Assembly: GCA_008501735.1 (NCBI GenBank)
Contig: QQUF01000002.1
Location: 1 to 64,000 of the forward strand
Direction: 5' to 3'
Origin: Calditrichota bacterium
Lineage (GTDB): Bacteria; CLD3
Length of the DNA: 64,000 nt
In this document: positions 24,293 through 50,212 of the stretch, one piece after another
Numbering within the stretch: position 1 is the first letter of the stretch
How the letters are laid out: each line of letters begins with the position of its first letter
Translations under genes and position numbers: made by a program
The notes under the pieces: model-generated
What the model saw: only the letters and a program-made list of their open reading frames with translations
What the model was told of the DNA's origin: nothing
Databases searched by the model: none

Positions 24293-24327
24293 TAAAAAAA
24301 TTAGGGAATAACTAAAAGCTATTCCCT
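24293..24327 (-). terminator. Rho-independent terminator of mdh
   Basis: On the minus strand AGGGAATA (24327-24320) pairs with TATTCCCT (24310-24303), followed by AATTTTTTTATA. It lies between the mdh stop and the hsp20 start. Confidence 0.8.
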
Positions 24328-47984: not shown

Positions 47985-48929
47985 TTAAATTTGTTCGTCT
48001 GTAACCTCTTGTCCACCCGAAAGTAAGTAAAGAACTGCCATTCTTACTGCAACACCATTTGTAACTTGTTCTAAAATTACCGAACTGTTTCCATCAGCAA
48101 CATCTGAGTCAAGTTCAACTCCACGATTTATTGGTCCAGGATGAAGAATTAAAACATCAGGATTTATTTTGAGTCTTTCTTTTGAAACTCCAAAAAACCT
48201 GTTGTATTCTCGTAAGGTTGGGAAAAGCCCAGTTCCATTTTGTCTTTCAAGCTGAATTCGAAGAACGTTTAGTGCATCTGCAAACTCAATTGCTTCCTCA
48301 ACTCTGTAAGAAACTTTAACACCTAACTCTTCGATATTTCTTGGAATCAAGGTTGAAGGGCCACAAACCATAACATCTGCTCCAAGTGTTTTCAAGCCGT
48401 AAATATTTGAAAGAGCAACTCTTCCAAAAGCAATGTCTCCAACGATTGCAATTTTTTTGCCTTCAAGATCGCCAAGTTTTTCTCGTAAAGTCATTATGTC
48501 AAGAAGCCCTTGAGTTGGGTGTTCGTGAGAACCATCGCCAGCATTTATGATTACGGAATCCAAACATTCAGTCAAATATTTTGCTGCTCCGGGAGAACTG
48601 TGCCTGCAAACAACCATATCAATTTTCATCGCTTCAATGTTTCTAACAGTGTCTTTGAGAGTTTCACCTTTACTAACGCTGCTACCACTTGCTGAGAAAT
48701 TTACCGTATCGGCAGAAAGCCTTTTTTCAGCAAGTTCAAAAGAAACTCGTGTTCTTGTCGAGTTTTCAAAGAACAAATTTGCAATTGTCTTTCCTCTTAA
48801 AGTCGGGACTTTTTTGACAGGTCTTTCTAAGATTTGTCTAAATGAATTTGCTGTGTCAAGAATGGTAATAAGGTCATTTTGAGAAACACCTTCCAAACCA
48901 AGCAAGTGGTTAATTTTAAGAATTCCCAA
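47985..48929 (-). CDS. pyrB: Aspartate carbamoyltransferase catalytic chain
   Basis: A 314-residue enzyme for the first committed step of UMP synthesis, carbamoyl phosphate plus aspartate to carbamoylaspartate. Carbamoyl-phosphate site FFENSTRTRVSFELA, then FSASGSSVSKGETLKDT, the catalytic His in HEHPTQGLLDI, and the aspartate site HPGPINRGVELD. No regulatory chain PyrI is present, so control is likely through the adjacent pyrR. The gene starts three bases after the pyrR stop. Confidence 0.97.
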   Translation of the reverse strand: MGILKINHLLGLEGVSQNDLITILDTANSFRQILERPVKKVPTLRGKTIANLFFENSTRTRVSFELAEKRLSADTVNFSASGSSVSKGETLKDTVRNIEAMKIDMVVCRHSSPGAAKYLTECLDSVIINAGDGSHEHPTQGLLDIMTLREKLGDLEGKKIAIVGDIAFGRVALSNIYGLKTLGADVMVCGPSTLIPRNIEELGVKVSYRVEEAIEFADALNVLRIQLERQNGTGLFPTLREYNRFFGVSKERLKINPDVLILHPGPINRGVELDSDVADGNSSVILEQVTNGVAVRMAVLYLLSGGQEVTDEQI

Positions 48930-48931
48930 TT

Positions 48932-49493
48932 CTAATTTTCCTCCTCAATAATTTCTACAAGGTGAACTGCATCTTCTTCTTCATCGTATTCTTTAATTTT
49001 TACACGAACTTCTTCATTGAGCAAAGTCCTAACTCTTTTGCCCACAAAATCTGCTTTTATTGGAAGTTCTCTGTGTCCTCTATCGACCATAATTACAAGT
49101 TGAATTCTTGAAGGTCTTCCGTAATCCATTAAAGCATCAAGTGCCGAACGAACTGTTCTTCCAGTAAAAAGCACGTCATCAACAAGAATTATATTTTTTC
49201 TGTCAATTGAAAATGGCAAATCGGTAACGAGAATTTCAGGCTGTTTTAGATTTGTCCGAAAGTCATCTCGGTAAAGAGTAACATCGAGAACACCAACAGG
49301 AATTTCAGTTCCTTCAATTTCTTCAATCTTTTTTGCAAGCCTTTTTGCTAAAAATTCACCTCTTGTTCTCATTCCGACAACGGCTAAATTTTCGGTGCCT
49401 TGGTTTTCCTCAAGAATCTCGTGAGCTAAACGAGAAATAGTTCTCGAAAAAGCCTTAGAATTGAGTAAAGTATCTTTAATTTTAACTTTCATT
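48932..49493 (-). CDS. pyrR: Bifunctional pyr operon regulator / uracil phosphoribosyltransferase PyrR
   Basis: A 186-residue protein from the ATG at 49493. PyrR proteins bind pyr mRNA leaders in a UMP-dependent way and many also have uracil phosphoribosyltransferase activity. Features: VVGMRTRGEFLAKRL, the PRPP loop IILVDDVLFTGRTVRSAL and LVIMVDRGHRELPIKADFVG. Start choice: GAGGT lies five bases before the ATG; the longer frame from a TTG at 49513 starts inside the T-run of a terminator and is rejected. The terminator ends only 18 bases before this ATG, suggesting attenuation of pyrRB. pyrB follows after three bases. Confidence 0.95.
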
Positions 49494-49511
49494 TGACCTC
49501 TAGATTTTGAC

Positions 49512-49548
49512 AAAAAAAAACCTCCCCGAAGATTTCAGGGAGGTTTTT
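49512..49548 (-). terminator. Leader terminator immediately upstream of pyrR (candidate attenuator)
   Basis: On the minus strand AAAAACCTCCC (49548-49538) pairs with GGGAGGTTTTT (49526-49516) around an 11-base loop, followed by further T residues to 49512. The pyrR Shine-Dalgarno sequence begins about nine bases later, so no promoter fits in between. Transcripts reaching pyrR must read through this structure. It also terminates any transcript from the upstream heptose genes. Confidence 0.8.
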
Positions 49549-49651
49549 CATTTATTTGACAATTTTTATAGACATTTTTAAAACGACTTCATTAAAATTT
49601 CTGCCGAATTTAAAAAGAAATGCCTTGTTTTCAAAAGAGAAAACTTTGCAA

Positions 49652-50212
49652 TTAAGAATTAATTTTTTGCTTCATTTCAGTTGCAATGTAATGAAAGATA
49701 ATTGAATGAACTGACTCAACCATACACATATCACCACAAGGAACGTGCATTTGGTGAGTTGAAATTTCATTAATTTTTCCACCACTGAAACCTGTTACCG
49801 AAACACTCTCAATTCCGTGAGCATTTGCATATTCAAGGGCTTTTACTACATTAGGACTATTTCCAGAGCCTGAAATAATAACCAACAAATCACCTTCATT
49901 TGCAAATGAAATTAGAGGTTGAGTAAAAACAGTGTCGTACCCTTCATCATTTGCTTGAGCAGTCATAAAAGAAGCATTTGAGAAACTCATCGCTTTAATT
50001 CTATTTGTTTGCTCCATACTCATAAGAGTACCTTTTGCTAAGTCTTGTGCAAAATGCTCTGCATTCGCATAACTTCCACCGTTTCCAATTACGAAAACCA
50101 TTTTTCCATTTTCGTAAGCTTTATAAAGAACATCCATAAAATTATTAATTTGGTTATGGTCAACTTTATCTAAGATTTTGTTTAATTCTGCAAAATATGG
50201 ACTTATTTCCAC
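49652..50212 (-). CDS. gmhA: Sedoheptulose 7-phosphate isomerase (GmhA-like SIS protein)
   Basis: A 186-residue SIS-domain isomerase converting sedoheptulose 7-phosphate to D-glycero-D-manno-heptose 7-phosphate. The phosphate-binding motifs are FVIGNGGSYANAEHFAQDL and LVIISGSGNSPNVVKAL, and SVHSIIFHYI near the C-terminus holds the family His and Glu. It overlaps the heptose kinase gene by ten bases. Together with the two upstream genes it forms a heptose-nucleotide module. It is somewhat shorter than the typical enzyme but all motifs are present. Confidence 0.9.
   Translation of the reverse strand: MEISPYFAELNKILDKVDHNQINNFMDVLYKAYENGKMVFVIGNGGSYANAEHFAQDLAKGTLMSMEQTNRIKAMSFSNASFMTAQANDEGYDTVFTQPLISFANEGDLLVIISGSGNSPNVVKALEYANAHGIESVSVTGFSGGKINEISTHQMHVPCGDMCMVESVHSIIFHYIATEMKQKINS

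Follow-up and report, generated by a model that had tools for sequence, protein, structure and literature searches.

Results

The analyzed window, 64,000 nucleotides of contig QQUF01000002.1 from a Calditrichota bacterium (assembly GCA_008501735.1, genome G000 below), carries on its minus strand a pyrR gene (48932..49492, ATG at 49492-49490) whose 186-amino-acid product belongs to the PyrR family, scoring 235.7 bits against the NCBIfam PyrR equivalog NF003549, above the cut-off of 138. Next on the same strand is an ORF for pyrB, the aspartate carbamoyltransferase catalytic subunit (47985..48929; NF002032, 395 bits, cut-off 263), with a TTG start codon 2 nt past the pyrR stop. Upstream of this pair, also on the minus strand, are three heptose-type sugar-phosphate genes, the last of which is phosphoheptose isomerase-like (gmhA-like; 49652..50212; TIGR00441, 101.6 bits, below the cut-off of 209). 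As the final member of its cluster, the gmhA-like gene reads into the pyrR leader across a spacing of 159 bases. Two genes inside the sugar-phosphate cluster are likewise preceded, at 84 and 43 nt, by terminator-like hairpins on the same strand (51980 and 55220, minus strand).

As in an attenuator, a terminator lies directly before the pyr gene. Folding, the sequence itself, and a terminator scan all place an intrinsic terminator at 49512..49548 (minus strand): the stem, AAAAACCTCCC / GGGGAGGTTTTT, pairs perfectly, and the nine T residues behind it (49520-49512) stop 19 nt short of the pyrR ATG. The first-pass annotation had described a strong terminator 18 bases from the ATG; the strength was borne out, and the distance is 19 nt. 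Shuffled versions of the leader (49494-49651) fold at -25.3 kcal/mol on average, and none of 200 matched the -41.6 kcal/mol of the real sequence (z = -4.85). This stability comes from the hairpin, because the 55 nt before it fold at chance level (z = 0.18). The AT-rich stretch from the candidate start site to the hairpin (49549..49600, minus strand) is unstructured, with neither a PyrR binding loop nor an antiterminator. A Shine-Dalgarno-like AGAGG (49497..49501, minus strand) sits between the terminator and the ATG, as had been claimed.

In some bacteria, the PyrR protein switches a terminator before pyr genes by binding RNA. The first-pass annotation proposed such control of readthrough here, in the Firmicutes manner, in which PyrR with UMP binds the leader and favors the terminator. 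Much about the locus invites this reading: pyrR adjoins pyrB, the terminator is at the right distance, the terminator 3' arm holds GGGAGGTT, which fits GNGAGGYU, binding loops are common in related phyla, and the attenuator family RF00515 has a weak match exactly on the leader. The consensus for the top of the binding loop is given as ARUCCAGAGAGGYU in an excerpt of PMC7430163. A hairpin top of the ARUCCNGNGAGGYU type was absent from the leader, and absent above noise from the whole genome when searched with the covariance model R1. The likeness of the 3' half to GNGAGGYU is a genuine match, found in 2 of 54 terminator-like sites across 263 kb of this genome, both being the pyrR terminator, one per strand, but it does not mark a binding loop, since the sequence is the paired arm of a perfect stem and no hexaloop hairpin is formed.

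All 110 pyrR loci were kept after orientation by tblastn, and a binding-loop hairpin was found by pattern at 83 of them; counting covariance-model matches as well raised this to 89. Of the 72 regex-positive named loci, 60 went into R1, and those left out were one duplicate and 11 others mostly of odd length or shape. The R1 hairpin covaries: 7 of 10 pairs have changed at both positions and 97% of cells are paired, a result that none of 500 shuffles equaled. The model, one search round of which covered 61 sources and not all, found nothing above noise in the leader or genome of G000 (best match 19.8 bits, inside an unrelated ORF), no match in G001, which is the one same-family genome compared, and none at pyrR of seven other genomes of the class, among them G007, where pyrR itself had no match. 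In G003 there was one 20.2-bit match, on a contig other than that of pyrR; positive genomes included G062 (46.5 bits) and G053 (25.2 bits).

The RF00515 match on the window leader is the best in G000 at 31.5 bits and falls short of the gathering cut-off of 54; the loop is deleted in its alignment, so that the score comes from the terminator, and matches away from pyrR in G005 and G003 reach the same level (32.2 and 31.8 bits). In a scan of 20 loci with this family, all 19 named loci matched at pyrR at E<=10, 4 over the cut-off and 15 under, and the G001 locus had no match. The first-pass annotation called PyrR-controlled readthrough little described in this group; among related groups (Ignavibacteria, Melioribacteraceae, and others), binding loops proved to be widespread. 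Two loci (L109 at 870 and 1530, L190 at 724 and 1399) carry a second binding loop farther downstream in addition to the one before pyrR, an arrangement like that of multi-attenuator pyr operons.

The antiterminator that PyrR attenuation would use was also missing. The best duplex between the leader and the 5' arm of the terminator reached -2.4 kcal/mol, with 346 of 500 shuffles as good (416 of 500 for G001), so an RNA antiterminator is very unlikely, and a hidden antiterminator was rejected on the same result. The duplex test has little power for Bacillus-type pairing, because it is weak in loop-bearing relatives too, where 6 of 59 had z < -1.64 and the median z was -0.38. Many Ignavibacteria pyrR leaders (L046-L061, L112) have GGAATG or GGATTG right after the AAGG of the loop, and attenuation in that group may be translation linked instead of antiterminator based.

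The protein has changed as well. At residues 146-156, in a numbering that we take to be that of the B. subtilis sequence, solved PyrRs read RAD(Y/F)VGKNVPT, the G000 protein reads KADFVGKRVRT, and the G001 protein reads QADFIGKKVIT. G000 PyrR thus has R153 and R155 while keeping H22 and K146, and G001 PyrR has K153, I155, and Q146 while keeping H22; neither has the full set of loop-associated residues (N153, P155, R/K146, and H22). Of 109 distinct proteins, 88 came from loci with a binding loop and 21 from loci without. N153 occurred in 85 of the 88 versus 5 of the 21, and the counts for R/K146 and for P155 were both 87 of 88 versus 7 of 21. A second set of 67 genomes, from which G000 and G001 were left out and which shares 28 loci with the first, gave both N153 and P155 in 24 of 26 with the loop versus 7 of 41 without (Fisher test, P = 7e-10), P155 in 26 of 26 versus 14 of 41, and H22 in 26 of 26 versus 18 of 41. 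Two of the seven exceptions lacking a model match, L021 and L037, do show a binding loop, of divergent form, when judged by eye or pattern.

When the signature columns were left out of the tree, the binding-loop label took 19 changes to place on it, compared with an average of 21.1 after shuffling; because the labels are unclustered, relatedness should inflate the association little. Supported branches were too few for an independent-pairs test of loop against signature (3 pairs, P = 0.5), which leaves the Fisher test and the unclustered labels as the basis of the association. A separate uracil phosphoribosyltransferase, Upp, is present in G000 and G001, and G062, whose pyrR has a binding loop, has no full Upp match. 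PyrR is not decaying and is still in use in G000, because its identity between G000 and G001 (78%) is near that of PyrB (82%) and H22 and K146 are kept. PyrR-controlled readthrough, then, meets a genome with no binding loop, an unstructured leader with no antiterminator, and a PyrR lacking N153 and P155 in both family members, and we regard Firmicutes-type attenuation as highly improbable at this locus.

A terminator this close to a gene could belong to the gene before it. One alternative is that the hairpin ends the heptose operon and the pyrRB promoter overlaps it, giving a nearly leaderless transcript. In favor of this, gmhA lies directly upstream in G000 with no other terminator, and closely spaced starts occur elsewhere: in a 263-kb sample of this genome, 3 of 16 intergenic terminators end <=25 nt before the start of the following same-strand gene. 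Two such terminators (L186 at 16593; window at 24300, minus strand) end 16 and 21 nt before genes and 47 to 54 nt after the preceding stop; judged from translations alone, the genes are RNase Z-like and Hsp20-like. In this genome, either promoters overlap terminators or operons hold leaky ones. That the pyrR leader has "no space for a promoter" after its terminator is literally correct, but it is not decisive in this genome, because two other genes likewise follow terminators closely.

The G001 genome, which makes the family comparison one of two genomes, bears directly on this question. Heptose genes and pyrRB share one neighborhood there as in G000, and GmhA identity (81%) is like that of the Pyr proteins, but in G001 a 766-amino-acid ORF in the opposite direction separates gmhA from pyrR, so that the gene upstream of pyrR is divergent; this ORF (L149 3909-6209, minus strand) is sensor histidine kinase-like. 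In G001, gmhA has a terminator of its own, and the pyrR terminator is kept with its U9, ending 16 nt before the ATG with no codirectional gene directly before it. The U9 and the GT(C/A)AAAAT after it are conserved between the genomes, and in both the pyrR strand has a run of 9 T where the other strand has <=5. Aligned over their whole length, the leaders score well beyond shuffled sequence (0 of 500 as good), an alignment driven by the terminator, and the portion upstream of the hairpin aligns weakly on its own (51 of 500 shuffles as good).

Position points the same way. Where a binding loop is present, the terminator lies a median of 16 nt from pyrR, compared with 19 nt in G000 and 16 nt in G001. 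Terminators ended <=45 nt before pyrR at 61 of 103 loci with a binding loop and at 7 of 46 without one, G000 and G001 being among the 7; for this count L021 and L037 were placed in the binding-loop group by eye or pattern. Two further loci without a binding loop and with a changed PyrR signature, L012 and L020 (in G081 and G061), have terminators 23 and 15 nt before pyrR that, by eye, come immediately after the end of an upstream ORF, at its stop codon.

Promoter sequence can be suggested upstream of the hairpin, not over it. A pattern match at 49605..49634 (minus strand) pairs TTG (49634-49632) with TAAATTCG (49612-49605) over 19 nt, and the corresponding place in the G001 leader reads TTG-N20-TAACTTCA, making the common pattern TTG-N19/20-TAA(A/C)TTC(G/A). 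A version of this pattern loosened after both leaders had been inspected was seen 26 times in 105 upstream regions of this genome versus 7.5 expected (maximum 14 in 30 shuffles), and would occur by chance in shuffled G000 and G001 leaders with frequencies of 0.047 and 0.059. The strict Bacteroidota promoter TAnnTTTG was not enriched before genes of this genome (21 seen, 15.4 expected). Because the terminator persists in G001 behind a divergent gene, with its U9 and its distance intact, it is most simply read as part of the pyrR leader; sequence comparison makes this most likely, in agreement with the first-pass annotation, and we consider its assignment to the end of the heptose operon somewhat unlikely.

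Translation offers another way to control such a hairpin. As in attenuation of E. coli pyrBI, or in the scheme proposed for Thermus Z05, a ribosome following closely on a polymerase that waits for UTP would block the hairpin. A possible 20-codon leader ORF in G000 (49489..49551, minus strand) starts at 49551, crosses the hairpin and U9, and ends with a TGA that overlaps the pyrR ATG (ATGA). G001 also has an ORF through the terminator, ending inside pyrR, and ribosomes near a terminator repress it, according to PMC4824070. On the other side, neither the peptide sequence nor the end of the ORF is conserved between the genomes, no clear ribosome binding site precedes the start, and ATG-initiated ORFs cross 12 of 54 terminators in the 263-kb sample, so that finding one in two of two leaders has a chance probability of about 5%. 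A leader peptide was rejected as the main explanation on this background, and we judge translation-coupled attenuation quite unlikely. By eye, the stretches upstream of carA, pyrC, and pyrE in G000 and G001 showed no hairpin with a T run near the start.

Discussion

The reading we prefer, to which we give about an even chance of being right, is that G000 has a PyrR-type pyrR-pyrB leader that kept its terminator and lost its PyrR-RNA switch, leaving readthrough at a basal level or set in another way. With no RNA binding site left and the corresponding part of PyrR altered, the familiar PyrR switch is probably gone or replaced here.

Under this retained-terminator reading, the leader would consist of a promoter, about 50 nt of unstructured RNA, the terminator, 19 nt, and pyrR, a layout that presumably descends from a PyrR attenuator or was built like one. 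The PyrR half would have been lost on both sides, the binding loop disappearing genome-wide and the RNA-contact loop of the protein being altered. We infer that transcripts of pyrRB pass through the terminator, starting at a dedicated promoter a short way upstream of it and, in G000, probably at the heptose genes too. Readthrough may be basal, or it may respond to something other than PyrR and UMP, in which case the most plausible signals would be a ribosome that starts on or moves across the hairpin's 5' arm, or a polymerase slowed at low UTP.

A bolder version holds that the lineage swapped the PyrR-RNA switch in place for a PyrR-independent one, combining leader-ORF translation with a UTP-limited polymerase, that PyrR stays beside pyrB in a new non-RNA role despite the presence of Upp, and that N153-x-P155 separates RNA-regulating PyrRs from those that do not regulate across bacteria. 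We hold this combination to be rather improbable.

The first-pass annotation called the genome Bacteroidota-like, which does not agree with the taxonomy used here, where we found 9 genomes of the phylum, all in one class, and the group is therefore a small phylum of its own. Among named records outside the class, the best PyrR matches came from an unclassified bacterium, a Calditrichota, and several Ignavibacteria genomes. No such leader was described in the open-licence literature searched on PyrR and attenuation, Ignavibacteria, Bacteroidetes, and Chlorobi, an absence that carries little weight, and excerpts of PMC3766115 and PMC2965389 do not settle whether this group has one.

At this locus a PyrR-type leader may have been caught lacking the PyrR half that close relatives of the lineage retain, and the missing RNA site can be linked to particular positions in the protein. 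Should this residue rule be correct, sequence alone would predict which proteins annotated as "bifunctional pyr operon regulator/uracil phosphoribosyltransferase" really regulate. The locus also serves as a warning that finding pyrR together with a terminator is not enough to make a PyrR attenuator.

Each of the closest known systems resembles this leader in part. Attenuation of E. coli pyrBI needs no regulatory protein and uses a terminator just before the gene with a leader ORF running through it; G000 has the terminator and possibly such an ORF, although its ORF is short, unconserved, and not above background. The Thermus Z05 pyr leader is reportedly translation coupled and, like G000, without an RNA antiterminator, but unlike G000 it is said still to use a PyrR binding site. 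Compared with RF00515 and the B. subtilis pyr attenuator, G000 shares the order of pyrR and pyrB, a terminator about 16 to 19 nt before pyrR, and a candidate promoter upstream, and it differs in having no anti-antiterminator (the binding loop), no antiterminator, and altered RNA-contact residues in PyrR. Ignavibacteria, Melioribacteraceae, and other relatives (L039-L060, L112) have the same gene pair and terminator position, and their leaders, unlike that of G000, carry CCTTTAA-...-ATCCNGNGAG-...-AAGG hairpins with covariation.
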